From contig NZ_CP126247.1 in assembly GCF_030142155.1 (NCBI RefSeq), forward strand, positions 1,922,001-1,986,000: 64,000 nucleotides of DNA, written 5' to 3'. Numbering within the stretch: position 1 is the stretch's first letter; every line of letters begins with the position of its first letter. The translations under genes and the position numbers were made by a program. Below are positions 6,489 through 20,683 of this stretch, one piece after another. The notes below the pieces were generated by a model, which ran no database searches, was not told the DNA's origin, and saw only the letters and a list, made by a program, of their open reading frames with translations. Origin of the DNA: Arthrobacter sp. zg-Y820. Its GTDB lineage: Bacteria; Actinomycetota; Actinomycetes; Actinomycetales; Micrococcaceae.

Positions 6489-6569
6489 CAGGGAATCCTT
6501 TCATTCCGTGTGACAAAAAACGCAATGGCGCGGCTAATACAGTAACGTGCCTAAAATGCGAGATAATTG

Positions 6570-6583
6570 AGCAAATGCTTGGG
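6570..6583. promoter_or_regulatory. KstR2-like operator E (fadD3/kstR2 divergent promoter)
   Basis: AGCAAATGCTTGGG lies in the 131-bp divergent region between fadD3 and kstR2. It matches AnCAAGnnCTTGnT at most positions; deviations are the fourth core base of the left half and the last base. Its placement predicts autoregulation of the TetR gene together with repression of fadD3. Confidence 0.68.
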
Positions 6584-6619
6584 CATAAAACCTTGGTAAT
6601 TCCGAATAGAGGAGATTTG

Positions 6620-7252: not shown

Positions 7253-8011
7253 TTAGTTCTGGACTTCCCGGGTCCGGCCCCCGCGCGGATCCAGCACCTC
7301 GCGGATGAGGCGCAGCTCCTCCGCGGTGGGAACGCGGGTGAGGGGAGCGCCCTCGACGTCGAGCGCAAAACCCGTGTTGTCCACGACCTCCTGCGGATCC
7401 ACGCCGGGGTGGATCGAAAGTACGGTGACGCGGCCGTCGTCGTCGTAGCCCAGGACGGCAAGGTTGGTGACAATCACGCCCAAGTGGTGGAACCGCATCG
7501 ATGGTCCCGCGGCCCGCGCCCTGTCGTTTCCGACGCCGGAGACCATGTCGACCGACTCGACAAACAGGCGCGCACTGTGGCGCGAGACCCAGTAATCCAC
7601 GCGGTGGTTGGCCGTGTTGCCGGGAGCGCCGCGCACGCCGATGAGCTGGCGCTTGGGCTTGTTCCAATCGCCGATCAGTGAAATGTTCTGGTTGCCGTAG
7701 CGGTCAATCTGACTGGCGCCCATCATGCTCTGGCGCCGGCCGGTGGCGACGATGTCAAAGACGCGGCGGAACGGAGCCCAGCCCTCGATGATTCCGCCGC
7801 CGGCAGCTGATTTGCCGAGGGGCGGCGGCTCGCTCATCATGAAGGCCTCGCCGTCGCTCAGGACCAGGTCGGGGTTGTGCGTGAGCTTGGCCAGGCGGGC
7901 GCCGATGGTCGGGATGGTGCCGACGGCGTGCGCCATCAGCTCTCCGGACTCGCGGTAGGTGTCTGAGCACGCCGCAATGCAGATTTCGGCGATGGTGGCG
8001 TCTGCGGTCAT
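7253..8011 (-). CDS. ipdB: COCHEA-CoA hydrolase beta subunit, first copy (IpdB)
   Basis: This 252-residue class I CoA-transferase-fold protein is the beta subunit of the ring-opening hydrolase IpdAB, which cleaves the last steroid ring of a cyclohexene carboxyl-CoA intermediate. Diagnostic segments shared with Mycobacterium IpdB as remembered are IEGWAPFRRVF, MGASQIDRYGNQNIS, GVRGAPGNTANH and LSIHPGVDPQEV. It starts one base inside the ipdA stop (TAATG), so the subunits are coupled. A second, more divergent ipdB lies at 18286. This copy keeps the GVRG.PGNT and EGW.PF motifs that the second copy has lost, so it is the better candidate for the classical activity, although its gene neighbourhood is not the mycobacterial one. 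Confidence 0.9.
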   Translation of the reverse strand: MTADATIAEICIAACSDTYRESGELMAHAVGTIPTIGARLAKLTHNPDLVLSDGEAFMMSEPPPLGKSAAGGGIIEGWAPFRRVFDIVATGRRQSMMGASQIDRYGNQNISLIGDWNKPKRQLIGVRGAPGNTANHRVDYWVSRHSARLFVESVDMVSGVGNDRARAAGPSMRFHHLGVIVTNLAVLGYDDDGRVTVLSIHPGVDPQEVVDNTGFALDVEGAPLTRVPTAEELRLIREVLDPRGGRTREVQN

Positions 8012-8877
8012 TACTTTTTCTCCTGTACTGCATGGAAGCGGGCAACGGCCTCGTGGTAGCCGGCCTCGTCGCCGGAGAGGAATTCGTGAACAAATGCGCG
8101 CCAGCTTTCGGGATCCTTCGCGGAGGCGGCATAGTGCTTCTGGAAAGCCTCGTCGCGGCCGTAGTCCGGCTCGCAGGTGGTGAAATGGGCGCCGTTGGGG
8201 GTCTCAATGACACCCGTGACGTACATGCGGCTCAACATGAGGGTGTGGAATGAGCCCTCGTCCAGGAGGTCTTCCGTTTCCACGATCCGCTCGGTGGTTA
8301 CAAAGGTGCGGGTGGCAGCCATGGCGAAGAGGTCGTCAAAGTACGGGTCCGGGCCGAGGAACTGCGCGTTGCCGCCGCTGTCGGACCGGTTGACGTGGAT
8401 CAGGGCAACATCCAGCGGTGTTGCCGGGACCGCGACGTACTCGTCATCGGAGTACGGCGAGGCGATGGTTTTCAGGTGCGGGTTCGCCGCCATCACGTCC
8501 GAGCCGAGTCCGGCCAGCGTGGGCAGGAACGAGAGCCGGGAGGCCGCGGCGCGCAGCCCGGTGACAAACATGCCCTCGTCGTATTCGCTGATTTCCAGCT
8601 CGCCGCGTTCGCGGGCAGCGGTGAACAGCGGGTCCAGCGCGATGCTGTCCAGCGACACAAAGCCGTAAATCAGCTTGCGCACCTTGCCGGCCGCAACGAG
8701 CAGGCCGACGTCGGGGCCGCCGAAGGCGACAACGGTCAGGTCGGTCACGTCGCTGCGCAGCAGCTCACGGACCGCGGCCATGGGCTTGCGCCGCGACCCC
8801 CATCCACCGATACCAATGGTCATTCCGGACTCAATGGACGAGATCGCCTCAGTGAGTCCAATCCTCTTGTCGGGCAT
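8011..8877 (-). CDS. ipdA: COCHEA-CoA hydrolase alpha subunit, first copy (IpdA)
   Basis: This 288-residue alpha subunit of IpdAB opens with MPDKRIGLTEAISSIESGMT, followed by IGIGGWGSRRKPM, almost the mycobacterial IpdA N-terminus as remembered. YGFVSLDS and ISEYDEGMFVTGLRAAA follow; the Glu of DEGM is the likely catalytic residue by position in the known family, where a Glu near residue 105 acts as a base in C-C bond hydrolysis. PDYGRDEAFQKHYA near the C-terminus is also family-specific. Overlap with ipdB (TAATG) indicates coupled translation. KstR2-like operator B lies 30 bp upstream of the start. Conventional CoA transferases use a Glu in the beta subunit; this family is a hydrolase instead. 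Confidence 0.92.
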   Translation of the reverse strand: MPDKRIGLTEAISSIESGMTIGIGGWGSRRKPMAAVRELLRSDVTDLTVVAFGGPDVGLLVAAGKVRKLIYGFVSLDSIALDPLFTAARERGELEISEYDEGMFVTGLRAAASRLSFLPTLAGLGSDVMAANPHLKTIASPYSDDEYVAVPATPLDVALIHVNRSDSGGNAQFLGPDPYFDDLFAMAATRTFVTTERIVETEDLLDEGSFHTLMLSRMYVTGVIETPNGAHFTTCEPDYGRDEAFQKHYAASAKDPESWRAFVHEFLSGDEAGYHEAVARFHAVQEKK

Positions 8878-8907
8878 CCGCTCCTCTTTTCCCGCATCAT
8901 TGCGAAA

Positions 8908-8926
8908 CCTAGCGCTTGTTTGGTAG
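8908..8926. promoter_or_regulatory. KstR2-like operator B (ipdAB first copy)
   Basis: cctagcgcttgtttggtag sits 31 bp upstream of the ipdA start at 8877. Read on the reverse strand it contains ACAAGCGCTAGGT, which matches AnCAAGnnCTTGnT except for one base in the second half. It lies in the 85-bp gap between the acyl-CoA dehydrogenase genes and ipdA, which suggests ipdAB has its own promoter. Confidence 0.72.
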
Positions 8927-8962
8927 TCAGACTAGCATGAGCCGTCCCCGGCCTGGCGGCAG

Positions 8963-10075
8963 TTAGCCCACTGTGACGCCCAGGAGCACACCCAGACGGC
9001 GGCGGTGCGCGCGTGACTGTCCGAAGAGCTGGCCGGTGGCGTGGGCCCGCTTGAAGACGAGCTGGGCATCGTGTTCCCAGGTGATGGCGATGCCGCCGTG
9101 CATCTGCACGGTCTCGGACGCCACATGGTCGAGCGCGTCTGCGCACCAGGCAGCGGCGGAGGCGGCCCGCTCGGGCAGGTCGGCAGCATCCGTTCCGGCG
9201 GACCAGGCCGCAGCCCAGGCGGCGGTGCGCGCCGTTTCCACCTGGACGAGCATGTCAGCCATCCGGTGCTTGAGCGCCTGGAAGGAGCCGATCGGGCGGC
9301 CGAACTGCACGCGCTGCTTGGAATACTCGACCGTCATGTCGAGTCCTCGCTGCGCGGTGCCCACCTGCAGGCAGCTCACCGCGACGATGGCGATGTCACG
9401 GATTTTCTCCAGGGCTGCTTCGGCGTCCAGCCGGAGCGGCCGGGCGGGAACCCGGCTAAACGTCATCGTCGAGAAGCGCAGCGTGGTGTCCACTGCGGGG
9501 ACGTTCACCCGCTGGATGGCGTCGACGTCGAGCACTTCGAACAGTCCGACGCCGTCCGGCGTGGCGGCCACCGCAATGACCGTGTCGGCACTGCCGCCGT
9601 CGAGCACCAGTGTCGCCGTGCCGTCAAGCGTCCACGACTCGCCGGGTGTGGCAACGATGCCCGACCCGCGGGTGCTCCAGCGGCCCTGCCCGTCGGCCCA
9701 GGCCAGCGTTGCCAGGGAGGTGCCCTCGGCGATGCCGGGGAGCAGCCGCTCCCTGGCCGCTTCGTCGTCGGCCTGCAGGATCGCGGCTGCACCAAGGACT
9801 GCGGAGGCGAGCAGCGGGCTGGGAGCCAGGGAGTAACCGAGCGCCTCCAGCACGAGGCCGGTCTCAAACCAGGTGAAGCCGACTCCGCCGTACTCCTCCG
9901 GAATGGCGAGCGAGGCGACGCCGACCTCTTCCACCAGGACACGCCACAGCTCGACGTCGTACCCGGCCTCGGATTCGGCGGCTTTGCGCACTGCTGCGGA
10001 GGTCGCGTGGCGGTTGAGCACCGCACGGATCGTCTTCACGAGCTCGTTCTGCTCGTCGGTCAGTGAGAAGTCCAT
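8963..10075 (-). CDS. acyl-CoA dehydrogenase, FadE33-like
   Basis: This FAD-dependent acyl-CoA dehydrogenase-family protein has 370 residues. It has the N-terminal helical domain (MDFSLTDEQNELVKTIRAVL), a middle beta domain, and the C-terminal bundle with YSKQRVQFGRPIGSFQALKHRMADM and QMHGGIAITWEHD. The ATG at 10075 was preferred to an upstream start at 10159, because the upstream segment is a Pro-rich readthrough overlapping the previous gene. It is last in a tight run of three dehydrogenase genes after an enoyl-CoA hydratase gene; the gap to the preceding gene is 7 bp. In mycobacteria fadE31-32-33 occupy the same order and act on intermediates left after ring opening. Assignment as FadE33 is by order, not a residue-level test. 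It may pair with a neighbour as a heterotetramer. Confidence 0.82.
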   Translation of the reverse strand: MDFSLTDEQNELVKTIRAVLNRHATSAAVRKAAESEAGYDVELWRVLVEEVGVASLAIPEEYGGVGFTWFETGLVLEALGYSLAPSPLLASAVLGAAAILQADDEAARERLLPGIAEGTSLATLAWADGQGRWSTRGSGIVATPGESWTLDGTATLVLDGGSADTVIAVAATPDGVGLFEVLDVDAIQRVNVPAVDTTLRFSTMTFSRVPARPLRLDAEAALEKIRDIAIVAVSCLQVGTAQRGLDMTVEYSKQRVQFGRPIGSFQALKHRMADMLVQVETARTAAWAAAWSAGTDAADLPERAASAAAWCADALDHVASETVQMHGGIAITWEHDAQLVFKRAHATGQLFGQSRAHRRRLGVLLGVTVG

Positions 10076-10082
10076 GATGTCC

Positions 10083-11087
10083 TCAGCGGGTGGGGGAGAC
10101 GACGGGGGAAGGCGCGGGGGAGGTTCCGGGGGACAGCAGGAGCGAAGCGATGCGGTCATAGTGATGGCGGGGAGTGCCCCACACGCCCATTAGGGCGCGC
10201 ACCCGCGTGATCCACAGGCCCAGGTCGTGCTCCTCGGTGTAGCCGATCGCACCGTGAACCTGCAGCGCAACGCGCGCGGCCAGGTTGGCCGCTTCCCCGG
10301 CGGCGATCTTGGCCGCAGAGATGCTGCGGGCACTGTCGGGGTCCCCGAGATTCAGCGCGGCGCCGGTGACCAGCGGGCGGGCGAAGGTGAGGGCAATGCG
10401 CACGTCGGCGAGCTGGTGCTTGAGCCCCTGGTACTCGCCGATCGCGCGTCCGAACTGCTCGCGGATCTTGGCGTAGGAGACGGCCTCGGCCAGCAGGCGT
10501 TCACCCGCACCCAGCAGTACTGCCGAACACGCCAGCGTCGCCCGGTCGAGGGCCAGGGCCACCACGGCGGGATCAAGTGCGGCGGACTCCCCGGCGGCGG
10601 TGAGCTCATGAAGCGTGCGCGTCCTGTCGATTGAGGCGATCCCCGGTCCGGACGTGGCTGACGAAATGGACTCGGCGTCGACTAGGAAATGATGGCTGCT
10701 CGCAGCGGCGTCCAGGGCGTAGGGAACCAGCCCGGGCACTGCTGCAGTGGCAATGATCGAACCGTCAACGATGCCGCGGCGCACATCGGCACCGACCAGG
10801 TCGGGCAGCAGTGCTCCCGACTCGATGTAGGGCCCCGGCACGGCATGGTAGCCCAGCCGTTCGAAGGCGACCACGAGGTCGACGGCGGTGCCGCCCATGC
10901 CGCCGTCGGCCTCCGGAACGCACAGGCCAAGCAGGCCGAGATCGGCGAGTTGGGCCCACAGTGCCTGGCCCGACGCCGGGTCGCCGGCCGCCCAGGTCCG
11001 AGCGGCTTTCGTTCCGCCGGCACTTTCGATGATCTCGTCGACGGCTTCCGCCAGGGCCTGCTGTTCTTCGGTCAACACAAATTTCAT
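10083..11087 (-). CDS. acyl-CoA dehydrogenase, FadE32-like
   Basis: This acyl-CoA dehydrogenase-family protein has 334 residues, shorter than typical (380-400). Segments include MKFVLTEEQQALAEAVDEII at the N-terminus, YAKIREQFGRAIGEYQGLKHQLADVRI, and VHGAIGYTEEHDLGLWITR near the C-terminus. The central beta domain looks reduced, as in the short subunits of actinobacterial alpha2beta2 steroid dehydrogenases. It starts inside the last codon of the preceding fadE31 (ATGA), so equimolar synthesis is likely. By gene order and length it corresponds to mycobacterial FadE32. The Ser/Pro/Thr-rich C-terminal end (SPGTSPAPSPVVSPTR) is unusual and may be disordered. Confidence 0.82.
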   Translation of the reverse strand: MKFVLTEEQQALAEAVDEIIESAGGTKAARTWAAGDPASGQALWAQLADLGLLGLCVPEADGGMGGTAVDLVVAFERLGYHAVPGPYIESGALLPDLVGADVRRGIVDGSIIATAAVPGLVPYALDAAASSHHFLVDAESISSATSGPGIASIDRTRTLHELTAAGESAALDPAVVALALDRATLACSAVLLGAGERLLAEAVSYAKIREQFGRAIGEYQGLKHQLADVRIALTFARPLVTGAALNLGDPDSARSISAAKIAAGEAANLAARVALQVHGAIGYTEEHDLGLWITRVRALMGVWGTPRHHYDRIASLLLSPGTSPAPSPVVSPTR

Positions 11088-12262
11088 GACACTCTCCTGC
11101 CGTCGCCGCCGCGGGGGAGGCCGAGTAGACGTTCTGCAATGATGTTGCGCTGGATCTCGTTCGTCCCGGCGTAGATCGGGCCGGCGATCGAGAAGAGGTA
11201 GTCGTCAACCCAGCGGCCGTCGGCCACGCCGGGGGTGCCGCGCAGCTCAGCCGCGGGGCCGAGCAGGGTCAACGCTGTTTCGTGCAGTGCTATGTCGAGT
11301 TCGGACCAGAACACCTTGTTCACGCTGCCCTCGGCGCCGATGTCGCCGCCGTTCTGCAGCGTGCTGACCGTGCCCCAGGTGTAGAGGCGGTAGGCCTCGG
11401 CCTTGATCCAGGCATCCACGACGGCGTCCCGCGCGAACGGATCCTCGTGCTGCTGGTCGTTCCACAGATCGATGAGCCGGTCGGCGGCTGCACAGAAGCG
11501 GCCGGGGGCGCGCAGGGAGAGCCCGCGCTCATTGCCGGCGGTGCTCATGGCGACGCGCCAGCCGTCGCCGGGGGCCCCGAGCACGTCCGCGTCGGGAACA
11601 AAAACATCCTCGAAGAACAGTTCGGCGAAACCCGTTGATCCGTCGAGCTGTGCAATCGGGCGCACGGTGAGGCCCGGGGCGTCCATCGGGAACAGGAAGT
11701 AGGTCAGGCCCCGGTGGCGGTCGGCGGCCGGGTCGCTGCGGAAAAGTCCGAAGCCGCGGTCGGCCCACACCGCACGCGAGCTCCAGGTTTTCTGGCCGCT
11801 CAGCAGCCAGCCGCCGCGCTCGTCGTCGCGGCGGGCGGTGCTGCGGATCGCTGCCAGGTCGCTGCCGGCGCCCGGTTCCGACCAGGCCTGCGCCCAAATC
11901 AGCGAACCGTCGGTCATCGGCTTCAGGTAGCGGGCGCGCTGCTCGTCGGTGCCGTGCTCGAACAGGATGGGCGCCAGCAGGGAGATGCCGTTCTGCGCCA
12001 CCCGGGTCGGGGCGCCGGAGCGGTAATACTCCTCTTCAAAGAGCACCCACTCAACGAGCCCGGCGCTGCGGCCGCCGAATTCCTCCGGCCAGGCAACGGC
12101 CGACCAGCGGCCTTCGGCCAGGGTGGCCTCCCACTTCCGGTGGGCGATAAAACCCTCGGCCGTGTCCATCGACGGCAGCGGGGCCGGCGGCACGTGTTCG
12201 GCCAGCCAGGCCCGTGCCTCCGCCGCGAAAGCGTGCTGTTCGTCTGTCAGATCGAGGTTCAT
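11084..12262 (-). CDS. fadE31: acyl-CoA dehydrogenase FadE31
   Basis: This full-length acyl-CoA dehydrogenase has 392 residues. The segments SMDTAEGFIAHRKWE, WAQAWSEPGAGSDLAAIRSTA, SSRAVWADRGFGLFRSDP, FVPDADVLGAPGDGW and KVFWSELDIALHETAL resemble mycobacterial FadE31 (Rv3562) very closely as remembered. The C-terminus carries IYAGTNEIQRNIIAERLLGL; the residue before GT, where medium-chain enzymes carry their catalytic Glu, is Ala, so the base must come from elsewhere as in related steroid dehydrogenases. The start overlaps the enoyl-CoA hydratase stop (ATGA) and the end overlaps the next dehydrogenase. It should act with the two following dehydrogenases on CoA thioesters derived from the opened C/D rings. 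Confidence 0.9.
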   Translation of the reverse strand: MNLDLTDEQHAFAAEARAWLAEHVPPAPLPSMDTAEGFIAHRKWEATLAEGRWSAVAWPEEFGGRSAGLVEWVLFEEEYYRSGAPTRVAQNGISLLAPILFEHGTDEQRARYLKPMTDGSLIWAQAWSEPGAGSDLAAIRSTARRDDERGGWLLSGQKTWSSRAVWADRGFGLFRSDPAADRHRGLTYFLFPMDAPGLTVRPIAQLDGSTGFAELFFEDVFVPDADVLGAPGDGWRVAMSTAGNERGLSLRAPGRFCAAADRLIDLWNDQQHEDPFARDAVVDAWIKAEAYRLYTWGTVSTLQNGGDIGAEGSVNKVFWSELDIALHETALTLLGPAAELRGTPGVADGRWVDDYLFSIAGPIYAGTNEIQRNIIAERLLGLPRGGDGRRVS

Positions 12263-13116
12263 TTGGTAACCGCCGCGTCGCGCATGCCCTTGACTCCCAT
12301 TCCGGCCAGCGAATCCGCGCCGACCTCTGCGTTGTGTGCGTGCGCCGCGTGGTGCAGCCCGAAGACCGAATCCATGCCGGCGCGGAGACCCTGCAGGTCT
12401 TCCGACTGATTGACTGCCTTCTTGGCGAGGGCCAGCCCGAGGCGGGGCATGGCGCTGATCCGTTCGGCCATGGCCATCACCGTGTCCTCCAGCTCCAAGG
12501 CCGGGACAACGTGGTTGACCATTCCCAGGTCGTGGGCGCGCTGGGCCGTAAAGCGGTCGCCGGTGAAGAGGAACTCCTTGGCGGCACGCGGGTTCATCAC
12601 CCAGGGGTGGGCGAAGTACTCCACGCCGGGAATTCCCATCCGGACCACGGGATCCGAGAAGAAGGCATCCTCGCTGGCGACGATGAAGTCACAGGACCAG
12701 GCCAGCATCAGGCCGCCGGCGATGCAGGCGCCCTGGACCATGGCGATCATCGGTTTCGGGATCTCGCGCCAGCGCCGGCACATGCCGAGGTACACCTCGG
12801 ATTCCCGGGCGAAACGGGAATCAACGCCCGTGGCGCCAACGTGGTCCCACCACATCACTGCCTTGCGCTCGAAGCTCTGGTCGATGTCACGGTCGGGGGT
12901 GCCGATGTCGTGTCCGGCCGAGAAGTGCTTGCCGTTCCCGGCCAGGACGATGACCTTGACCGCGTCGTCCTGCACGGCCTCCGTGAACGCGGCATCCAGT
13001 GCGTAGGTGACCTTCGAGTTCTGCGCATTGCGGTACTCGGGCCGGTTCAGCCGCACGATGGCCACGGACCCGCGGACCTCGTATGTAACAACCTCGTTGG
13101 AATCGTCGTTCTTCAT
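12259..13116 (-). CDS. enoyl-CoA hydratase/isomerase family protein
   Basis: This crotonase-fold protein has 285 residues. RLNRPEYRNAQNSKVTYALD, the oxyanion-hole segments KHFSAGHDIG and GACIAGGLMLAWSCDFIVAS, and FSDPVVRMGIPG are typical. Glu residues normally present after the second oxyanion loop are not obvious, so it may be an isomerase or a hydrolase rather than a plain hydratase. The ATG at 13116 was chosen because GAGAGGAG lies 6 bp upstream; the longer form would add seven residues. It is first in the operon with fadE31 and the two short dehydrogenases, and divergent from fadE30 across operator C. It is not EchA20, which lies at 19894. Confidence 0.88.
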   Translation of the reverse strand: MKNDDSNEVVTYEVRGSVAIVRLNRPEYRNAQNSKVTYALDAAFTEAVQDDAVKVIVLAGNGKHFSAGHDIGTPDRDIDQSFERKAVMWWDHVGATGVDSRFARESEVYLGMCRRWREIPKPMIAMVQGACIAGGLMLAWSCDFIVASEDAFFSDPVVRMGIPGVEYFAHPWVMNPRAAKEFLFTGDRFTAQRAHDLGMVNHVVPALELEDTVMAMAERISAMPRLGLALAKKAVNQSEDLQGLRAGMDSVFGLHHAAHAHNAEVGADSLAGMGVKGMRDAAVTK

Positions 13117-13157
13117 CGTGGCTCCTCTCTGAGACACTTCCCCCTGTGATGTGGTTC

Positions 13158-13177
13158 ACCAAACAAGTGCTTGGTTT
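13158..13177. promoter_or_regulatory. KstR2-like operator C (best match)
   Basis: accaaacaagtgcttggttt contains AACAAGTGCTTGGT, an exact match to the mycobacterial KstR2 consensus AnCAAGnnCTTGnT. It lies in the 120-bp divergent promoter between the enoyl-CoA hydratase operon and fadE30-ipdF-fadA6, about 60 bp from fadE30 and 40 bp from the hydratase start. Confidence 0.85.
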
Positions 13178-13236
13178 GCTAGCATAGGCGAAGCTCGACT
13201 TTATGACCAATGGCGGTGGGCGATGAAAGGTGTTTC

Positions 13237-14406
13237 GTGGATCTGATCTATTCAGTGGAAGACGACGAGTTTCGTCAGGAGATCCGAGCGTGGCTGGAAT
13301 CCAATCTCGTCGGCAAGTTTGCGCAGCTGCGCGGCCTCGGCGGATCCGGCCGTGAACATGAGGCCTTCGAGGAACGCCTCGAGTGGAACCGCCACCTTGC
13401 CGCGCACGGCTGGAGCTGTGTCAGCTGGCCGAAGGAGCACGGCGGGCGCGGGCTGAGCCTGCTCCAGCAGGTGATCTTCCATGAGGAGTACGCCAAGGCG
13501 GATGCTCCGGCACGGGTTAACCACTTCGGTGAGGAACTGCTCGGCCCGACGCTGATCGCGTTCGGCACTCCGGAGCAGCAGGCCCGCTTCCTTCCCCGCA
13601 TCGTGGCGGTGGAGGAACTCTGGTGCCAGGGCTACTCAGAGCCGGGAGCCGGCTCGGACCTGGCCGCCGTCTCCACCAAGGCCCGGCTTCAGGACGGGCA
13701 GTGGGTGATTGACGGGCAGAAGGTCTGGACGTCCCTGGCGCACCACGCCGATTGGTGCTTCGTCATCGCCCGCACCGACTCCGGTCCGCGCAAGCACGAC
13801 GGGCTCTCGTACCTGCTCGTGCCGATGGACCAGCCCGGCGTCGAGATCCGGCCGATCCTGCAGCTGACGGGTACCTCGGAATTCAACGAGGTGTTCTTCG
13901 ACGGCGCCGTGACGGCTGCCGACCTCGTTGTCGGCGCGCCGGGTTCCGGCTGGTCGGTCGCCATGGGCACCCTCGGCTTCGAACGCGGTGTCTCCACGCT
14001 GGCGCAGCAGATCGCGTTCCAGCGTGAACTGGAGGCCGTCGTCGACCTGGCCCGCAGCAACGGTGCGATCGAGGACCCGATCATCCAGGACCAGATTGTC
14101 TCGGCGCACATGGGGCTGGAAATGCTCCGGCTGCACGGGCTGCGAACGCTGAGCGGCGAGCAGGGCATCGAGGCTTCCATCACCAAGCTGCTGTGGGCAC
14201 CCTGGCACCGGGCGCTCGGCGAACTCGCCATGGCCGTCGCCGGTCCGGGCGGCCTCACCGTCGCTGCGGAGCCCTACGAGCTCGACGCACTGCAGACTCT
14301 TTTCCTGTTCAGCCGCGCCGACACCCTGTATGGCGGCTCGGATGAAATTCAACGCAATGTTATCGCCGAGCGTGTGCTCGGACTGCCAAAGGAGGCACGC
14401 GCATGA
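13237..14406 (+). CDS. fadE30: acyl-CoA dehydrogenase FadE30
   Basis: This acyl-CoA dehydrogenase has 389 residues and is assigned to oxidation of a hydroxylated HIP-CoA. GLGGSGREHEAFEERLEWNRHLAA, followed by VNHFGEELLGPTLIAFGTP and LWCQGYSEPGAGSDLAAVST, is nearly the mycobacterial FadE30 (Rv3560c) sequence as remembered. The tail has TLYGGSDEIQRNVIAERVLGLP, with Gly rather than Glu before GS. A GTG at 13237 with AAAGG 6 bp upstream is preferred to the ATG at 13210, which would add nine non-conserved residues. The stop overlaps the ipdF start by four bases (ATGA). fadE30-ipdF is also the mycobacterial order. Confidence 0.92.
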   Translation: MDLIYSVEDDEFRQEIRAWLESNLVGKFAQLRGLGGSGREHEAFEERLEWNRHLAAHGWSCVSWPKEHGGRGLSLLQQVIFHEEYAKADAPARVNHFGEELLGPTLIAFGTPEQQARFLPRIVAVEELWCQGYSEPGAGSDLAAVSTKARLQDGQWVIDGQKVWTSLAHHADWCFVIARTDSGPRKHDGLSYLLVPMDQPGVEIRPILQLTGTSEFNEVFFDGAVTAADLVVGAPGSGWSVAMGTLGFERGVSTLAQQIAFQRELEAVVDLARSNGAIEDPIIQDQIVSAHMGLEMLRLHGLRTLSGEQGIEASITKLLWAPWHRALGELAMAVAGPGGLTVAAEPYELDALQTLFLFSRADTLYGGSDEIQRNVIAERVLGLPKEARA

Positions 14407-15206
14407 GTTCCTCGCGCATCGCACAACCCGTTCCCGCCTATGTTCCCGCCCACGGGCTGCTCACGGGCCGGCGCGTCGTCGTCACCGCCGCGGCGGGTGC
14501 CGGCATCGGCGCCGCGGCAGCACGCCGCTGCCTCGAAGAAGGCGCCGCCCTGGTGGTGCTCGGAGACACGCACGCCGGAAGGCTGGAGTCATCCGCCGCC
14601 GAGCTCGGCGCGGAGTTCGGGACCGAGCGGGTTCGCTGGGCCGTCTGCGACGTCACTGTGGAGGAGCAGGTCGAGGCGCTGCTCGACGCCGCCGAGGAGG
14701 CCGGCGGCGTCGACGTCATGATCAACAATGCGGGCCTGGGCGGCAGCGTTTCCATCCTGGAAATGACCGACGAGCAGTGGTCCAAGGTCCTGGACGTGAC
14801 CCTCACCGGCACCTTCCGCAGTGTGCGTGCCGCGGCGCGCCGCATGGTTCGCAACGGAACCAAGGGCGTCATCATCAACAACGCCTCGGTCATTGGCTGG
14901 CGCGCCCAGGAGGAGCAGGCCCACTACGCCGCCGCCAAGGCAGGCGTCATGGCCCTCACCCGCTCGGCCGCGCTCGACGTCGCGCCGCACGGAATCCGCA
15001 TCAACGCCGTGTCACCGAGCCTGGCCATGCACCCGTTCCTGGCCAAGGTCACGTCGGACGAACTGCTGGAGCAGCTCACCGCGCGTGAGGCGTTCGGCCG
15101 GGCTGCCGAACCGTGGGAAATCGCCAACGTCATGGTGTTCCTCGCCAGCGACTACTCGTCCTACATGACTGGTGAAGTCGTGTCCGTAAGCAGCCAGCAG
15201 GCCTGA
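14403..15206 (+). CDS. ipdF: SDR oxidoreductase IpdF (hydroxy-HIP-CoA oxidation)
   Basis: This 267-residue short-chain dehydrogenase should oxidise or reduce the ring-C hydroxyl/keto group of the indane-CoA intermediate in HIP breakdown. The cofactor motif is TAAAGAGIGAAAA, an unusual form (GxGIG preceded by AAA) that it shares with mycobacterial IpdF (Rv3559c). NNAGLGG, NNASVIGWRAQ and the active-site YAAAK follow, and AFGRAAEPWEI plus FLASDYSSYMTGEVVSVS at the C-terminus match IpdF almost residue for residue as remembered. It overlaps fadE30 by four bases and fadA6 starts 12 bp downstream, so the three genes are one operon under operator C. Confidence 0.94.
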   Translation: MSSSRIAQPVPAYVPAHGLLTGRRVVVTAAAGAGIGAAAARRCLEEGAALVVLGDTHAGRLESSAAELGAEFGTERVRWAVCDVTVEEQVEALLDAAEEAGGVDVMINNAGLGGSVSILEMTDEQWSKVLDVTLTGTFRSVRAAARRMVRNGTKGVIINNASVIGWRAQEEQAHYAAAKAGVMALTRSAALDVAPHGIRINAVSPSLAMHPFLAKVTSDELLEQLTAREAFGRAAEPWEIANVMVFLASDYSSYMTGEVVSVSSQQA

Positions 15207-15218
15207 GAGGACTTTGCC

Positions 15219-16370
15219 ATGACCACCGCATACATCATCGACGCCGTCCGCACCCCGGGGGGACGCCGCGGCGGCTCCCTCGCCGGCATCCACTCCGCAG
15301 ACCTCGGCGCCCACGTCATCTCCTCACTCGTTGAGCGCACCGGCATCGATCCCGGCGCCGTTGACGACGTCATCTTCGGCTGCACCGACACGCTCGGCTC
15401 CCAGGCCGGCGACATCGCCCGCACCGCCTGGCTGGTCGCCGGAATGCCCGATCACGTCCCGGGCGTGACCATTGACCGGCAGTGCGGATCAAGCCAGCAG
15501 GCCGTGCACTTCGCCGCTCAGGGAGTGATGTCCGGAACCGCCGACCTGATTGTGGCCGGCGGCGTGCAGAACATGTCGGCCATTCCGATTTCAGCGGCGA
15601 TGACCGCCGGCCAACAGTACGGCTTCACCACTCCGTTTGCCGAGTCGCCCGGCTGGGTGGCGCGCTACGGAAACCAGGAGGTGTCGCAGTTCCGCTCGGC
15701 GGAGATGATCGCCGAAAAGTGGAACATCTCCCGCGAGAGCATGGAGGCCTTCGCGCTGGAAAGCCACCGCCGCGCGGTCGCCGCTGCGGACGGCGGACGG
15801 TTCGCGAAGGAGATCGTTCCGATCGCCGGGCTGGCCCATGACGAGGGCCCCCGCCGGGAGACGTCACTGGAGAAAATGGCGGCGCTTCAGCCGCTCACCG
15901 AGGGCGGCCGGATCACTGCGGCCGTGGCCTCACAGATCAGCGACGCAGCCAGCGCCCTGCTGATTGCCTCGGAAGGCGCCGTGGCCGCGCACTCCCTGAC
16001 GCCGCGCGCCCGCATCCATCACATCTCGGTGCGCGCCGATGATCCGGTCTGGATGCTGACCGGACCGATCCGCGCCACCCGCTACGCGCTGGAGCGCGCC
16101 GGCATGAAGGTCGACGACATCGATCTGTTCGAATGCAACGAGGCGTTCGCGTCCGTCGTGCTCGCCTGGGCGCAGGAACTGAACATCGACAGGGACAAGA
16201 TCAACGTCAACGGCGGCGGCATTGCGCTCGGCCACCCCATCGGTGCGACGGGCACCCGCATCATGGCCACGCTGCTGAACGAGCTGGAGCGCAGCGGCGG
16301 ACGGTTCGGCCTGCAGGTGATGTGCGAGGGCGGCGGCCAGGCCAACGTCACCATCATCGAGCGCCTCTGA
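15219..16370 (+). CDS. fadA6: thiolase FadA6
   Basis: This 383-residue thiolase is assigned to thiolytic cleavage of the linear 3-oxoacyl-CoA produced by IpdAB ring opening. The nucleophile lies in TIDRQCGSSQQAVHFAAQG, the His in NGGGIALGHPIGATG and the second Cys in VMCEGGGQANVTIIERL. GGVQNMSAIPIS, WLAR-like WVARYGNQEVSQFRSAEMIAEKWN and RARIHHISVRADDPV match mycobacterial FadA6 (Rv3556c) closely as remembered. It is third in the fadE30-ipdF-fadA6 operon. A 15-bp hairpin with T-rich base follows 16 bp after the stop. Confidence 0.93.
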   Translation: MTTAYIIDAVRTPGGRRGGSLAGIHSADLGAHVISSLVERTGIDPGAVDDVIFGCTDTLGSQAGDIARTAWLVAGMPDHVPGVTIDRQCGSSQQAVHFAAQGVMSGTADLIVAGGVQNMSAIPISAAMTAGQQYGFTTPFAESPGWVARYGNQEVSQFRSAEMIAEKWNISRESMEAFALESHRRAVAAADGGRFAKEIVPIAGLAHDEGPRRETSLEKMAALQPLTEGGRITAAVASQISDAASALLIASEGAVAAHSLTPRARIHHISVRADDPVWMLTGPIRATRYALERAGMKVDDIDLFECNEAFASVVLAWAQELNIDRDKINVNGGGIALGHPIGATGTRIMATLLNELERSGGRFGLQVMCEGGGQANVTIIERL

Positions 16371-16385
16371 CGCACGTCACCCGGG

Positions 16386-16434
16386 CACGGAAAAGGCGGC
16401 ACGCATCTTCCGGATGCGGGCCGCCTTTTCCGTG
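16386..16434. terminator. bidirectional rho-independent terminator
   Basis: Arms cacggaaaaggcggc (16386-16400) and gccgccttttccgtg (16420-16434) form a perfect 15-bp stem with a 19-base loop containing a smaller hairpin (cgcatcttccggatgcg). It separates convergent fadA6 and the lipoprotein gene. Confidence 0.88.
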
Positions 16435-16449
16435 CTGCAGAGGGGAAGG

Positions 16450-17124
16450 CTACGGCTTGACGGCTTCGCCGTGGAACAGCTTCTCCTCATGGTCCCAACT
16501 CGGGCTTGTGGTCACCAGCAGGTCCAGCGGGGCATCGTTCGGAACCGCGTACCCCATTTTCACCGTCTGGGTGCCGCCGGGGAGGATCTTGCCCTGGAAC
16601 TGACCCTCAAGGCCGCTGCCCGTGTCGAAGACGCGCTTGCCGGCGGTGCCTTCGGCACCGTAATTGACGGAGGCGTTGAACATGGCGGGATCAAAGATCT
16701 CTTCGCTGTTGTTGGTGATGCTCACCTCGAACAGGCGCAGCTGGCCTCCGGTGGCTTCTGCACCCGAAGCATACTGGCTCGCTGTCGCGCCTCCGAGGTA
16801 GGAGACTTTCACGGTCAGTCCATCCTCATACGTCCACTCTTCACCGAACGCTGCAAGCTCGTCCTGGAGGTCCTTGGACTTGGTCTCGGACGCAGTCGGA
16901 GAGGCGGAGGAAGATTCTTTGGGCTTGCTCGAGGCGGAGGCGGATTCTTTGGGCTTGCTCGAGGCGGAGGCGGAGGAGCTTTCCGTGGGCTCGCTTGAGG
17001 CGGAGGCCGTCTCGGTTGCCGAGGTGCTTGCAGCCTCACCCTTGGCAGCGTCGGTGGAGCAGGCTGTCATGCCCAGCAACCCGGCGAGGGCCAATGCGGT
17101 GAGGGAGTTCTTCATGACGTTCAT
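16450..17124 (-). CDS. putative secreted lipoprotein with Ser/Ala/Lys/Glu-rich linker
   Basis: This 224-residue exported protein starts MNVMKNSLTALALAGLLGMTAC: a signal peptide with a lipobox ending MTAC. Residues about 25-80 are a low-complexity linker of Ala, Ser, Lys, Glu and Thr, including two near-identical ten-residue units (ASSKPKESAS) encoded by a 30-bp tandem repeat near 16913-16972. The C-terminal 130 residues (VSYLGG..., LFEVSITNNSEEIFDPAMF, ILPGGTQTVKMGYAVP) look like an immunoglobulin-like DUF4352-type domain. The ATG at 17124 has AAGGAA upstream; the longer ORF would put charged residues before the signal peptide. It sits alone inside the steroid island with no visible functional link. 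Confidence 0.8.
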   Translation of the reverse strand: MNVMKNSLTALALAGLLGMTACSTDAAKGEAASTSATETASASSEPTESSSASASSKPKESASASSKPKESSSASPTASETKSKDLQDELAAFGEEWTYEDGLTVKVSYLGGATASQYASGAEATGGQLRLFEVSITNNSEEIFDPAMFNASVNYGAEGTAGKRVFDTGSGLEGQFQGKILPGGTQTVKMGYAVPNDAPLDLLVTTSPSWDHEEKLFHGEAVKP

Positions 17125-17209
17125 TGAGTGTGTTCCTTGATGTTGAGACTGACACAAACGGCAGTGTGTATCCTGAGTCACACATTGCCTTATGGAGTGT
17201 AACGGGCGG

Positions 17210-18289
17210 TTAGCCCTGGACGAGAACGGCTCCGCTGGCCGCCTTCAGCCGCAGGACCGCCTCGTCGACGATGCGATCGACCAGCTCCTGGCACGACGGC
17301 AATTCGTCGATGACCCCGACCACCTGCCCGGCAGCCAGCATGCCGGCGGAGGTGTCGCCGTCAACGAGCCCGGCCTTCAGGAGCATGGGCGTATTGGCGG
17401 CCAGCATCATCTGATTCCAGCTCCGGCCCGTGCCTCGCTTCATCGACAAACCGTCCCGTGCCATCTCCAGCCAGGACTGCCCGGAGAGCTCCTTGAACTG
17501 CAGGGAGCGGCGCAGGGTGGGCAGCAGCTGCCGCAGCCTTCCGGTGTCCTCCAGCCCGTTAACGAACTCGGTGCGCAGCAGCCGGTGCGGCATGCCGTCG
17601 GCCTTGGTGGTGACCACCGTTCCGTCGAGGCCGAAGGTGAGGTAGCGCTGTTTGATTTCCTCGGGCACCGAACTGTCGCTGGTGAGCAGGAACCGGGTTC
17701 CCATGCCGATGCCGACGGCGCCGTAGGCAAGGGCTGCAGCGAGACCGCGGCCGTCAAAGAAGCCTCCCGCCGCTATGACGGGGATGTCGACGGCATCGAC
17801 GACAGTGGGCAGCAGCAGCGTCGTGGGGATGGCGCCGGTGTGCCCGCCGCCTTCCCCACCCTGGATCATGACGGCATCTGCACCCCAGGCGGCCACCTTT
17901 TCGGCATGCCGCGCTGCGCCAACCGAAGGAATCACGACAATTGCGTTCTCCTTGAGCCTGTCGATGAGCTCGCGCTTCGGTGCCAGCGCAAAGGAGGCAA
18001 CCTTGACGCCGTACTTGATCAGCAGCTCGGCCCGCGCAGGGGCATCGGCCGCATCGGCGCGCAGGTTGACCCCGAAAGGCTTATCCGTGCGGCTCTTGAC
18101 CGCAACGATGGCCTGCTCCAGCTGGGCGAGCGTCATCGTGGCGGAGGCAAGAATGCCCAAGGCCCCCGCCTCCGCCGTGGCGGAAACCAGCCGGGGCCCG
18201 GCCACCCAGCCCATCCCCGTCTGCACGATGGGATGGTCGACGCCGGTGAGTTCGGTGAGGGGGGTGGAGATGCGGTTTGCGGTGCTCAT
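17210..18289 (-). CDS. ipdC: FMN-dependent oxidoreductase IpdC
   Basis: This 359-residue TIM-barrel flavoprotein is of the nitronate monooxygenase/2-nitropropane dioxygenase family. HPIVQTGMGWVAGPRLVSATAEAG at the N-terminus, VMIQGGEGGGHTGAIPT (phosphate-binding loop), PVIAAGGFFDGRGLAAALAYGAVGIGMGTRFL and SDSSVPEEIKQRYL are typical of the family. In mycobacteria the family member next to ipdAB (Rv3553, IpdC) introduces a ring double bond during HIP breakdown. Its position at the end of echA20-ipdA-ipdB-ipdC reproduces the Rv3550-Rv3553 order. The start overlaps the ipdB second-copy stop by four bases. Confidence 0.9.
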   Translation of the reverse strand: MSTANRISTPLTELTGVDHPIVQTGMGWVAGPRLVSATAEAGALGILASATMTLAQLEQAIVAVKSRTDKPFGVNLRADAADAPARAELLIKYGVKVASFALAPKRELIDRLKENAIVVIPSVGAARHAEKVAAWGADAVMIQGGEGGGHTGAIPTTLLLPTVVDAVDIPVIAAGGFFDGRGLAAALAYGAVGIGMGTRFLLTSDSSVPEEIKQRYLTFGLDGTVVTTKADGMPHRLLRTEFVNGLEDTGRLRQLLPTLRRSLQFKELSGQSWLEMARDGLSMKRGTGRSWNQMMLAANTPMLLKAGLVDGDTSAGMLAAGQVVGVIDELPSCQELVDRIVDEAVLRLKAASGAVLVQG

Positions 18290-19038
18290 GAAGGGACCTC
18301 TTGTTCTCTGCGGTTCCGGGGATCGAGAACCTCCCGGATGAGATGCAGTTCGCGCTCATCGGGAAGGCGGGTGGTGCTGACGGGGCCCGCACTGTGCAGC
18401 GGGAATCCGGTCGCGGCCTGGATCTCCTCGAGGGTTACCCCGGGGTGCAGCGACACCAGCGCCATGCTGGAATCAGGTCCGCTGAAATCCAGGACGCCGA
18501 GGTTCGTGACAACTTGGTGCAGCCGGTGGAACCGGGCGGCGGTGCCGGCGGCACGGGCGCGGTCGGTGCCGATGCCGGTCACATAGTCCACGTTCTCGAC
18601 GAAGTTGCGGCGGCTGTGGCGGGGGATCCAGTAGCTCGTGGCGTGGTTCACGGTGTTGGTGGCTGCGGCCCGGGTGCCCAGAAGCTGCCGGGTCGGCCGG
18701 GCATGCTCGCCGATGGCGGACAGATTCTGGTTTCCAAAGCGGTCGATCTGCGCCCCGCCCATCACCACGTGGCGGCGACCCGTGGTGATCAATTCGAACA
18801 GCTCACGGTACGGCAGGTAACCCGCCGGCGTTGTGCTTGGCCGGTCGACGGCCGGCACATCGCCGAGGATTGTCGACTCGCCGTCGCTGATCATGAGGTC
18901 GGGAGCGTGGGTCAACAGGGCGAGGCGCACACCGATGGTGGGCACCACGCCTGCCGGGCTGGCCAGAATGTCGGCCTGGCCGCGGAACAGATCGCTGCAG
19001 GCGGTGACGGCAACTTCGGCCCGCGTAACCGCGTTCAC
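18286..19038 (-). CDS. ipdB: IpdB paralogue, second copy (CoA-transferase-fold beta subunit)
   Basis: This 250-residue protein is homologous to the IpdB at 7253 (shared MGGAQIDRFGNQNLSAIG, GTRAAATNTVNHATSYW, VTNLGVLDF, LHPGVTLEEIQAATGF). It sits in the canonical echA20-ipdA-ipdB-ipdC order. Compared with the first copy it lacks the IEGW.PF motif (it has GYLPYRELFELITTGRR) and has RAAATNT in place of RGAPGNT. ELHLIREVLDPRNRREQE at the C-terminus is shared with mycobacterial IpdB as remembered. It overlaps both neighbours by four bases. It is either a functional duplicate or a subunit with a shifted substrate, for instance a ring carrying different substituents. Confidence 0.87.
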   Translation of the reverse strand: MNAVTRAEVAVTACSDLFRGQADILASPAGVVPTIGVRLALLTHAPDLMISDGESTILGDVPAVDRPSTTPAGYLPYRELFELITTGRRHVVMGGAQIDRFGNQNLSAIGEHARPTRQLLGTRAAATNTVNHATSYWIPRHSRRNFVENVDYVTGIGTDRARAAGTAARFHRLHQVVTNLGVLDFSGPDSSMALVSLHPGVTLEEIQAATGFPLHSAGPVSTTRLPDERELHLIREVLDPRNRREQEVPS

Positions 19039-19886
19039 CGCACACCGGCCAGGTTCGCCCGGTAGGCGGCGTCGTCCAGATCCAGGTAGCGGGCGCGGAA
19101 CGTTTGCCAGGCGTCGGGGGAGGACGCCGACTGCGCGTACTCCCGCTGAAAAGCCTCGTCACGGCCGTAGTCGGGCAGGCAGGACGTGAAGTGCGCGCCC
19201 AGCGGCGACTCAACCACGTGATCCACCATGGTGCGGTTCAGCAGCAGAGTGGAGGGGTGCGCGTTTCGGGTGAGTTCGGCAGTGGTCACCACCGCCTCCG
19301 CGCTGACGATCGTGCGCGCGGCGGCGCGGGCGAACAGGTCGTCGAAGTACGGATCGGGCCCGAGGCACTGGGCGTTGCCGAGTTCATCGGCGCGGTTGAG
19401 GTGCACCAGGGCCAGATCGAGGGGAATGGCCGGCATGGCCACCAGCACTTCGCCGTCGTCATAGGGCGAGGTGACCGTGCGGATGTGCGGGTTTCCCGCC
19501 AGGGCGTCCGCGCCGAGGCCGGAACGGGTCGCCTCGAAGGGGAGCCGCCGCCCGGCGGCGCGGAGCCCCGACACGAGCAGGGATTCGTCGAGCTCAACGG
19601 CTTCGACGGCGCCGGCCTGCCGAGCCGCGGCAAAGTGCGGTTCGATGGCAATCGAGTCAAGCGTGACGAAACCGTAAACCACGCGCTTGGCCTGTCCGGT
19701 GGCGCACAGGATTCCGACGTCGGGCCCGCCGAAACTGACGATTGTCAGGTCGCGGACTCCCGAGCGGACGAGGGCGCGCACCAGGGACATGGGCTTGCGC
19801 CGCGAGCCCCAGCCGCCGATGCCAATGGTCATCCCGTCGGTGAACTGCTCGATGACCGCCTCGGCATCGAGGACCTTGCTGGTCAT
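19035..19886 (-). CDS. ipdA: IpdA paralogue, second copy (CoA-transferase-fold alpha subunit)
   Basis: This 283-residue alpha subunit shares IGIGGWGSRRKPMSLVRALVRS, followed by FGGPDVGIL, YGFVTLDS, GPDPYFDDLFARAA and PDYGRDEAFQREYAQS, with the first IpdA. The probable catalytic Glu is retained, but its motif reads ELDESLLVSGLRAAG rather than YDEGMFVTGLRAAA. It therefore should still be able to act, though the pocket around the Glu differs. The gene lies 7 bp after echA20 and overlaps the second ipdB by four bases. Together with the pair at 7253-8877 this gives the window two complete IpdAB pairs. Confidence 0.88.
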   Translation of the reverse strand: MTSKVLDAEAVIEQFTDGMTIGIGGWGSRRKPMSLVRALVRSGVRDLTIVSFGGPDVGILCATGQAKRVVYGFVTLDSIAIEPHFAAARQAGAVEAVELDESLLVSGLRAAGRRLPFEATRSGLGADALAGNPHIRTVTSPYDDGEVLVAMPAIPLDLALVHLNRADELGNAQCLGPDPYFDDLFARAAARTIVSAEAVVTTAELTRNAHPSTLLLNRTMVDHVVESPLGAHFTSCLPDYGRDEAFQREYAQSASSPDAWQTFRARYLDLDDAAYRANLAGVR

Positions 19887-19893: not shown

Positions 19894-20652
19894 TCATTTC
19901 GCGGGGGAGTGGCCGGTGGCGACGAAGTCGTCGCGCAGGTCGTCGGCGACGCCGCCCAGATTGAGCTCGAAGGTGAAACCCTGTTCCCAGCGGTAGTTCT
20001 TCACGACATCGACGGGATCAATGCCGTTCAGCGCTTCCTTCGCCGCCCGCACCACGCGGGTGTCCTTGGCGGCGATTTCGTCAGCAAGGGCAAACGCTGC
20101 GGCGTCGAGCCGGTCGGCCGGGACCACCTCGGCCACGCTGCCCAGTTCGGCCAGCCGCTGCGCAGTGATGGTCCGGCTGGTGTAGTACAGGGTGCGCAGC
20201 AGATGCGCCGGCACGAGGCGGGAGAGGTGGGTTGCGGCCCCGAGGGCGCCGCGGTCCACCTCGGGGACACCGAAGTACGCGTCCTCTCCGGCAACGATGA
20301 TGTCGGCACTCCCGGCGAGCCCCACTCCGCCGCCGAGGCAGAAACCGTTCACGGCCGCGATGACCGGCACCGGGCACTCGTAGATCGACTTGAAGGCGAG
20401 GTAGCAGCCGCGGTTCGCGCCCAGAATGGCGCTGAAGCCATCGGTGGCCTGCATTTGCTTGATGTCGACGCCGGCGTTGAAGCCCCGGCCTTCTGCCCGC
20501 AGGACCACAACGCGGGTGTCCGGGTCCTTGCCTGCTTCGTCGAGGGCCTCGCTGATCGCGAACCAGCCTTCCACGGGCAGGGCATTGACCGGGGGATAGT
20601 CCATGGTTACCGCACGCACGCCGTCGTGGTGCATCTTCGATGTAATTGCCAT
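19894..20652 (-). CDS. echA20: ring-opening hydrolase EchA20 (crotonase fold)
   Basis: This 252-residue crotonase-family enzyme is the counterpart of mycobacterial EchA20 (Rv3550), which hydrolytically opens ring D of the bicyclic CoA intermediate. VTMDYPPVNALPVEGWF, VVLRAEGRGFNAGVDIKQMQATDGF, ANRGCYLAF, AAVNGFCLGGGVGLAGSADIIVA, VPEVDRGALGAATHLSRLVP and DTRVVRAAKEALNGID match it closely as remembered. It is the first gene of the operon echA20-ipdA-ipdB-ipdC and is divergent from an SDR gene, with two KstR2-like operators between them. Confidence 0.93.
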   Translation of the reverse strand: MAITSKMHHDGVRAVTMDYPPVNALPVEGWFAISEALDEAGKDPDTRVVVLRAEGRGFNAGVDIKQMQATDGFSAILGANRGCYLAFKSIYECPVPVIAAVNGFCLGGGVGLAGSADIIVAGEDAYFGVPEVDRGALGAATHLSRLVPAHLLRTLYYTSRTITAQRLAELGSVAEVVPADRLDAAAFALADEIAAKDTRVVRAAKEALNGIDPVDVVKNYRWEQGFTFELNLGGVADDLRDDFVATGHSPAK

Positions 20653-20664
20653 AATGTGACCCTA

Positions 20665-20682
20665 CCTAACGTTTGCTTGATA
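20665..20682. promoter_or_regulatory. KstR2-like operator D1
   Basis: cctaacgtttgcttgata lies 13 bp from the echA20 start in the divergent echA20/SDR promoter. It shares the TTTGCTTG core with operators A and D2. D1 and D2 begin 19 bp apart, about two helical turns, on the same strand. Confidence 0.7.
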
Positions 20683-20683
20683 G

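Follow-up and report, generated by a model that had tools for sequence, protein, structure and literature searches.

Two anciently separated IpdAB pairs in one steroid-degradation island of Arthrobacter sp. zg-Y820

IpdAB opens the last steroid ring, and it is single-copy in most of the steroid degraders sampled here. Why, then, does one catabolic island hold two complete pairs of its subunits? The question is raised by a 64,000-nucleotide stretch of the 3.79 Mb genome of Arthrobacter sp. zg-Y820 (C1:1922001-1986000, contig NZ_CP126247.1; hereafter the window, whose own numbering is used throughout). Its first 25 kb contain a near-full gene set for the catabolism of methylhexahydroindanedione propanoate (HIP), that is, of the steroid C and D rings. 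An initial annotation of the letters had placed two ipdA-ipdB pairs there, at 7253-8877 and 18286-19886, and had suggested that one of them processes a differently substituted ring, for example from bile acids. The pairs and their positions stand, and both lie intact on the minus strand; the proposed difference in substrate fares less well. Published work is cited by its PubMed Central (PMC) number, in each case for the passages or tables drawn on.

Results

Pair 1 (ipdA1-ipdB1) is a two-gene unit, and pair 2 sits in the echA20-ipdA2-ipdB2-ipdC order described in the initial annotation. All four reading frames have coding-like third-position GC. The best PDB matches of all four subunits are entries 6co6/6co9/6coj and 6con (database title: CoA-transferase subunits), which we take to be the IpdAB proteins of Rhodococcus jostii RHA1 and Mycobacterium tuberculosis; the four score 273-340 bits against the 6co6/6con chains and at most 87 bits against other CoA-transferases. 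IpdA1 is 59% and IpdA2 53% identical to IpdA of RHA1, while mutual identity is 55% for the alpha and 49% for the beta subunits. The conserved Glu of IpdA, presumably catalytic, is present in both pairs, as had been noted at the outset, and the same position reads Ala in entry 6coj. It is kept in 23/23 members of the clade that contains pair 1 (P1), in 92/92 other IpdA and in 13 of the 14 members of the clade that contains pair 2 (P2), the sole exception (locus L145) being apparently out of frame at that point. At the site of the transferase Glu, IpdB has Gly (Gly57 of the RHA1 beta subunit) in 23/23 P1, 14/14 P2 and 87/92 other sequences, and neither IpdB of the window carries the beta-subunit catalytic Glu of class I CoA-transferases. 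Since the IpdA Glu is retained and Gly occupies the nucleophile position of IpdB, both pairs look like C-C hydrolases rather than transferases, and we assign both to the IpdAB family, the hydrolases of 2-(2-carboxyethyl)-3-methyl-6-oxocyclohex-1-ene-1-carboxyl-coenzyme A (COCHEA-CoA). This replacement of Glu by Gly is given in PMC5380842 as one line of evidence that IpdAB is no transferase. No further protein close to IpdA was found in the zg-Y820 genome, the two other matches (E <= 0.001) being 30% identical CoA-transferases. Among the best 80 of 562 loci ranked by likeness to IpdA1, the nearest named relatives of pair 1 are those of Arthrobacter sp. APC 3897 (89% identity) and AQ5-05 (85%).

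The phylogeny of both subunits, which the initial annotation had called for, does not join the two pairs as a recent duplication. A first tree comprised 129 concatenated pairs (193 merged to 128 after joining identical pairs, plus RHA1); it left out seven rows of odd length (L031, L065, L086, L092, L145 at 3511, L152 and L171) and one with no readable partner (L172), and kept the locally out-of-frame L145 at 16516 (Microbacterium Se63.02b). Pair 1 falls in the 23-member P1 and pair 2 in the 14-member P2, each with support 1.0, and IpdA alone and IpdB alone recover both clades (0.98 to 1.0). A second tree, built from 67 pairs chosen by hand and rooted on proteobacterial sequences as outgroup, gives each clade 100/100 support, and the stem of P2 is longer than that of P1 (0.44 vs 0.26). 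There the Micrococcaceae rows are grouped with support in both clades, and the Microbacteriaceae rows form one group in P2 (99/93) and, weakly, in P1 (88/64). A single group of Micrococcales P1 and P2 is rejected by the approximately unbiased (AU) test (p = 5.6e-5). These separate clades and this rejection together speak against a recent lineage-specific duplication, and the two pairs represent, on these trees, distinct and anciently separated lineages. A single clade of all P1 and all P2 is not rejected (AU p = 0.377), so the pairs may have been brought together either by an ancient duplication or by transfer.

Two further pairs were seen in this survey. In Rhodococcus sp. IEGM 1379 (L153 at 8888, the same as L081) an IpdAB pair lies outside both clades, near ipdC-like, short-chain dehydrogenase/reductase (SDR)-like and substrate-binding-protein genes, and the same genome has a second pair at L152. 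Microbacterium Se63.02b has a third IpdAB-like pair (L145 at 3511; 51% and 40% identical to pair 1) that adjoins its own ipdC- and SDR-like genes, in an assembly with many frame breaks.

Both lineages are kept together. IpdA was counted at E <= 1e-40 in samples of the genus, the family, the order and the phylum. In the genus sample 5/29 genomes have IpdA, and all five have two; the corresponding figures are 11/395 for Micrococcaceae and 4/398 for the family of Microbacterium paraoxydans, again with two copies in every case. The order sample gave 2/396, both with two copies and both from the family of the window. In the phylum sample 39/396 genomes have a match: zg-Y820 has two copies, and the other 38/38 have one. 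Among 35 named genomes from the 80 loci, with all or up to 25 candidates scored, 27 have one copy, seven have two and one has three. In all 15 two-pair genomes of both family samples one copy is P1 and the other P2, and 14 of the 15 have full-length frames of both subunits; the remaining one, G022, has a broken ipdA2 in an assembly where several other genes are also split. Pair 2 without pair 1 was not seen in the genomes searched. The island itself is patchy, and both pairs would thus travel or be lost with it. An HsaC-like dioxygenase (TIGR03213) was of no use as a predictor: none of eight genomes exceeded the cut-off, with 290-348 bits in six, 65 bits in Microbacterium paraoxydans (G398) and no match in Microcella pacifica (G400). 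The two-pair HIP clusters of these last two species thus lack a strong HsaC-like ring-A dioxygenase, suggesting HIP scavenging or cross-feeding.

Pair 1 also occurs on its own. Eight P1 genomes have a single IpdA at the same threshold (Amycolatopsis 2, Nocardioides 3, Streptomyces 3). In Amycolatopsis dendrobii and all three Nocardioides, the gene next after echA20 is ipdC, without an ipdAB pair in the interval, and the tblastn matches are 40, 2, 229 and 2 bp apart. All 16 island genes sought (window 2702-21654) are found in A. dendrobii and two of the Nocardioides in the order of the window; pair 1 is among them, and pair 2 is absent. In the remaining Nocardioides the locus ends before the last gene, and 15 of the 16 are found. 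In the Streptomyces loci L011 and L012, echA20 and ipdC are adjacent, with a divergent P1 pair beside them and a partial gene set in reach. A different arrangement is found in Nocardioides sp. SLBN-35 (L016/L151), where a pair of ordinary type occupies the echA20 site and the P1 pair, at a distance of 2.4 Mb, adjoins KstR2-like and FadD3-like genes. Given the eight genomes with pair 1 and no second pair, pair 1 would probably be enough for the HIP pathway by itself.

Control appears to be shared as well. The initial annotation had pair 1 standing alone under its own operator. That operator is real (8906-8921), but pair 2 has operators of the same kind (20663 and 20682) upstream of its operon. 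A 16-base pattern built from the window's own sites, and therefore circular for the window and independent for relatives, occurs without mismatch at five places in 1-28000 and, at up to one mismatch, nowhere in 30001-64000; allowing two mismatches gives 12 and 1. At up to one mismatch and within 150 bp it lies upstream of ipdA1 in 14/14 loci of other multi-pair genomes (one of them three-pair); 13 of the loci include echA20, and 12 of these have the pattern upstream of that gene, the thirteenth (L143) ending there. In the four single-P1 loci scanned (L013, L015, L027 and L032, out of eight) no pattern was found within 150 bp upstream of ipdA1, and one is present upstream of the P1 ipdA of SLBN-35. 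P1 therefore seems to have an operator to itself in genomes with a second pair and, with the pattern upstream of both pairs in relatives, the two are likely derepressed by the same signal. HIP-CoA is the derepressing signal of KstR2 reported in PMC5380842. The sites, together with the repressor gene beside pair 1, point to KstR2-type control of both pairs within a HIP gene set. The mycobacterial KstR2 consensus was tried and set aside as not significant alone, with three matches against 1.45 expected by chance and as many in 20 of 100 shuffles; the pattern fitted to the sites of the window told more.

The two pairs have diverged at different places. Conserved columns were defined as those identical in >=93% of the 92 other IpdA or IpdB, which gave 95 in IpdA and 61 in IpdB. 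The near-invariant IpdB loop GVRGAPxNT, which is not a published criterion of membership, is present in pair 1 and reads GTRAAATNT in pair 2; across P2, RGAP has become RAAA or similar, with G to A in 13/14 and P to A or S in 14/14. P1 has changes of its own in the same region: the TSY of the segment after the loop is VDY or TDY there, and the HVVMG strand reads QSMMG or the like. It has also lost near-invariant IpdB residues that are intact in pair 2 (V to S95 and S to D139, 23/23 of the clade). The motifs quoted in the initial annotation (YDEGMFVTG and GVRGAPGNT in pair 1, ELDESLLVSG and RAAATNT in pair 2) are thus all real, but its picture of a pair 1 that keeps mycobacterial features and a diverged pair 2 was selective: S95 and D139 mark losses in pair 1, and the two IpdB are equally distant from the 92 others (mean identity 52.5% for IpdB1 and 51.9% for IpdB2). 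Ratios of nonsynonymous to synonymous substitution (w) are 0.02-0.11 for pair 1 and 0.08-0.27 for pair 2, which indicates purifying selection on both; values for fadE33 and SDRb between zg-Y820 and G023, and for SDRb between G078 and G051, were left out as implausible and taken as misextracted. Since the lineages are ancient and under purifying selection, something beyond a fresh copy appears to maintain both pairs.

The features of the island are collected in Table 1. The names FadE30, IpdF, IpdC and EchA20 are our assumption from gene neighbourhood, anchored on Table 1 of PMC5380842. ETF-like (electron-transfer flavoprotein) genes are also among the gene types of the first 25 kb; with cytochrome b561-like genes they occupy 22509-25838 and adjoin a Baeyer-Villiger-type monooxygenase gene at 25959-27806 (PtlE-like, 741 bits, below the 1100 cut-off). 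Strong hairpins with arms of 21-23 nt, probable terminators, lie directly 3' of the second thiolase gene (16385-16435) and of fadA6 (4812-4856). An ATP-binding cassette (ABC) transporter at 100-2567 was considered as an island member and rejected, since no copy of its substrate-binding gene turned up ahead of the fadA6 operon of G024 (L198). In many relatives one or two SDR genes lie between fadE33 and ipdA1 (L135 14992-16463, L136 3793-5396, L138, L008 and L010); they are 31-39% identical to SDRs of the island and are possible hydroxysteroid dehydrogenases, and none is present in the window or in G022. Some 20-40 kb upstream of the window (L192, G000:C1:1882000-1901999) are a CasI-like steroid-CoA ligase gene (552 bits, below the 900 cut-off), a bile-salt hydrolase gene, acyl-CoA dehydrogenases, a lipid-transfer thiolase and luciferase-like monooxygenases.

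Table 1. Coordinates of the two IpdAB pairs, their operators and neighbouring genes in the window
Feature	Position	Strand	Remarks
KstR2-like operator	2688..2703	+	upstream of SDR-fadA6 genes
SDR adjoining fadA6	2702..3565	+	NF005893, 325 bits (cut-off 255)
fadA6-like thiolase	3565..4785	+	NF005890, 729 bits (cut-off 580); FadA6 name from neighbourhood
fadD3-like acyl-CoA ligase	4884..6488	-	NF005801 (FadD3 family), 620.7 bits, below 657 cut-off
KstR2-like TetR repressor	6470..7237	+	best named structural match PDB 4w1u/4w97 (named KstR2), 166 bits
ipdB1, pair 1 beta subunit	7253..8011	-	252 aa, clade P1
IpdB1 loop GVRGAPGNT	7613..7639	-	canonical form
ipdA1, pair 1 alpha subunit	8011..8877	-	288 aa; conserved Glu101 codon at 8575-8577
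KstR2-like operator	8906..8921	+	upstream of ipdA1; palindrome AACCTAGCGCTTGTTT
three acyl-CoA dehydrogenases, fadE33/32/31-like	8963-10159, 10083-11087, 11084-12262	-	best model for two of the three is IpdE2 (NF050027), at a score under the cut-off
enoyl-CoA hydratase	12259..13137	-	NF006140, 454 bits (cut-off 280)
KstR2-like operator	13161..13176	+	between divergent hydratase-fadE31-33 and fadE30 operons
fadE30-like acyl-CoA dehydrogenase	13210..14406	+	name from neighbourhood
ipdF-like SDR	14403..15206	+	NF005880, 428.7 bits (cut-off 336); name from neighbourhood
second thiolase	15219..16370	+	NF005865, 682 bits (cut-off 591)
ipdC-like (nitronate monooxygenase/FabK-like)	17210..18289	-	PF03060; FabK model below cut-off; IpdC name from neighbourhood and PMC5380842 Table 1
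ipdB2, pair 2 beta subunit	18286..19038	-	250 aa, clade P2
IpdB2 loop GTRAAATNT	18652..18678	-	altered
ipdA2, pair 2 alpha subunit	19035..19886	-	283 aa; conserved Glu101 codon at 19584-19586
echA20-like enoyl-CoA hydratase family gene	19894..20652	-	NF005925, 408.6 bits (cut-off 260); EchA20 name from neighbourhood
two KstR2-like sites (20663, 20682)	20663..20697	+	upstream of echA20-ipdA2-ipdB2-ipdC, common to divergent SDR gene

Discussion

The island appears to encode HIP catabolism under a KstR2-type repressor and to hold two anciently separated heterodimers of the CoA-transferase fold. We give about an even chance to a division of labour within this one pathway, in which pair 1 would be the main COCHEA-CoA hydrolase, able to serve the entire HIP pathway alone, and pair 2, in the usual echA20-ipdA-ipdB-ipdC slot, would have turned into a specialised isozyme whose loop on the thioester side has been remodelled. 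Pair 2 would be co-induced with pair 1, so that both are likely made together. Its substrate would be the ring-opening intermediate that pair 1 acts on, or a close relative of it, in the same pathway, and the capacity so gained would be one that the islands of Micrococcales have not dropped. That pair 2 is a specialised isozyme is, on the sequence evidence, probable.

Several observations weigh against this division of labour. P1 keeps 79 of the 95 conserved IpdA columns and P2 57, and of the 61 conserved IpdB columns P1 keeps 50 and P2 46; the smaller numbers in P2 fit plain relaxation. So does the higher w of pair 2, seen in 11 of 12 comparisons that are not independent of one another (the exception being IpdA between zg-Y820 and G023). 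The matches of the operator pattern within the window are not independent either, which leaves the relatives and the zero matches in 30001-64000 as independent support. At most six candidates were scored per genome in the counts for the Micrococcaceae, Microbacterium-family, order and phylum samples, and one match in the phylum sample (G940, 38% identity) is doubtful as an IpdA. The 80 named loci are the best 80 of 562 by likeness to IpdA1, and genomes with pair 2 only, outside the searched families, could have gone unseen. Finally, the sufficiency of pair 1 assumes that the single-pair genomes degrade HIP, and the DNA read of the Streptomyces loci L011, L012 and L014 shows an incomplete set, with even fewer island genes in L014 than in the other two.

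Simple redundancy or dosage is a possible, though rather improbable, alternative: the pairs would be interchangeable on COCHEA-CoA, and two would be kept because of toxic ring-opening intermediates or because flux is limited at this step. It would accord with the KstR2-like operators at both pairs, with Rhodococcus equi, where growth is lost only in the double deletion and one set is dominant (PMC3161971), and with Nocardioides simplex, where both pairs are listed under KstR2 and marked '+' for phytosterol (PMC7807495, Table 3). However, clade-specific replacements at near-invariant sites of both pairs and co-retention in 15/15 sampled genomes are more than redundancy needs, and the R. equi pairs may be non-orthologous to those described here. 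We hold it equally tentative that P2 is a distinct IpdAB-derived enzyme whose rebuilt oxyanion-side loop would serve a dependent HIP reaction (a second hydrolytic cleavage or an alternative substrate), inherited only with P1 as an obligate Micrococcales two-hydrolase module.

The view of the initial annotation, that the two pairs act on rings with different substituents (hydroxylated derivatives of HIP that stem from bile acids or other steroids), is not supported and seems unlikely. Distinct changes of loop and segment would suit it, as would the CasI-like ligase, acyl-CoA dehydrogenases, lipid-transfer thiolase and bile-salt hydrolase genes upstream of the window and the extra SDR genes of several relatives. 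Yet the bile-salt hydrolase gene does not track the second pair, being genus-wide with or without IpdA (13/13 same-genus genomes tested, eight of them without IpdA) and found in 0/6 other Micrococcaceae two-pair genomes; a link to bile acids through this gene was rejected on that ground, though 3/6 Microbacteriaceae two-pair genomes have it, as against 0/16 genomes tested from other groups. The CasI-like ligase, in 8/11 Micrococcaceae and 0/6 Microbacteriaceae two-pair genomes, is likewise too inconsistent for a marker of the two-pair state. According to a review, the hydroxyls at C12 and C7 are removed or dealt with either ahead of HIP side-chain degradation or in its course, and there is a single canonical HIP route (PMC8399759). 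Their removal or handling is reported to precede C-ring opening (PMC8399759, PMC13101464). This early removal and the same KstR2-like class of operator at both pairs weaken the idea of separate rings.

A little less likely still is a pair 2 that is no isozyme but a partner enzyme for another step, for example a further C-C or thioester hydrolysis once the ring is open. Its altered loop, its location in the echA20-ipdC operon and its absence from searched genomes without pair 1 are what such a role would predict. Against it, the A. dendrobii cluster has no pair 2 but does have the 16 other island genes that were looked for, so that the pathway shows no obvious gap in its absence. Decay of pair 2 into a catalytically poor enzyme kept by operon hitch-hiking, which its faster evolution and lost near-invariant residues might suggest, is very improbable with w of 0.08-0.27, the Glu kept in 13/13 in-frame members and full-length frames in 14/15 genomes.

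A lineage with two unlike IpdAB under a common kind of regulation offers a natural experiment in the evolution of substrate range within this fold, and it bears on the belief that the HIP pathway is uniform. Since the single-P1 clusters resemble this island with one pair removed, what the second pair contributes can be tested directly.

Comparison with known systems

Both pairs resemble the IpdAB of RHA1 and M. tuberculosis in fold, conserved Glu, the Gly in place of the transferase Glu, HIP neighbourhood and KstR2-like control; unlike those, they occur as two pairs in one island, with clade-specific changes in the IpdB loop and segment. Class I CoA-transferases such as glutaconate CoA-transferase and AarC share the Pfam CoA_trans family, and the IpdB loop aligns by phmmer with GSGGANG of glutaconate CoA-transferase (1poi_B), but their catalytic Glu is absent from both IpdB. 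ScdL1L2 of Comamonas testosteroni, of which one pair is listed, is the proteobacterial counterpart of IpdAB according to Table 1 of PMC8399759.

The closest parallels are genomes with two copies. R. equi has two paralogous sets, IpdAB and IpdA2B2, with 55% and 51% mutual identity (55% and 49% here); its second set lies outside the steroid cluster and without echA20, whereas both pairs of zg-Y820 are in one island (PMC3161971). Loss of ipdA2B2 alone was almost without consequence there, loss of ipdAB alone led to a long lag, and with both deleted there was no growth on androstenedione (AD) or 5-hydroxy-HIP (5OH-HIP) (PMC3161971); PMC5380842 terms the two sets of R. equi fairly unique. In Nocardioides simplex VKM Ac-2033D, to judge by locus tags, one set is at echA20-ipdAB-ipdC and the other beside kstR2 and fadD3, and both are listed under KstR2 with '+' in the phytosterol column (PMC7807495, Table 3). 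SLBN-35 shares that layout and has a P1 pair, but, unlike in the window, its echA20 site holds an ordinary pair rather than a P2 one, and 2.4 Mb separate the two sets. Neither a two-pair Micrococcales island nor a P2 clade with a changed loop was found in print among open-licence PMC papers. The enzyme and two-copy genomes such as those of R. equi and N. simplex are thus already known, and what appears to be new is a two-pair island conserved in Micrococcales, together with its P2 clade and the changed loop.

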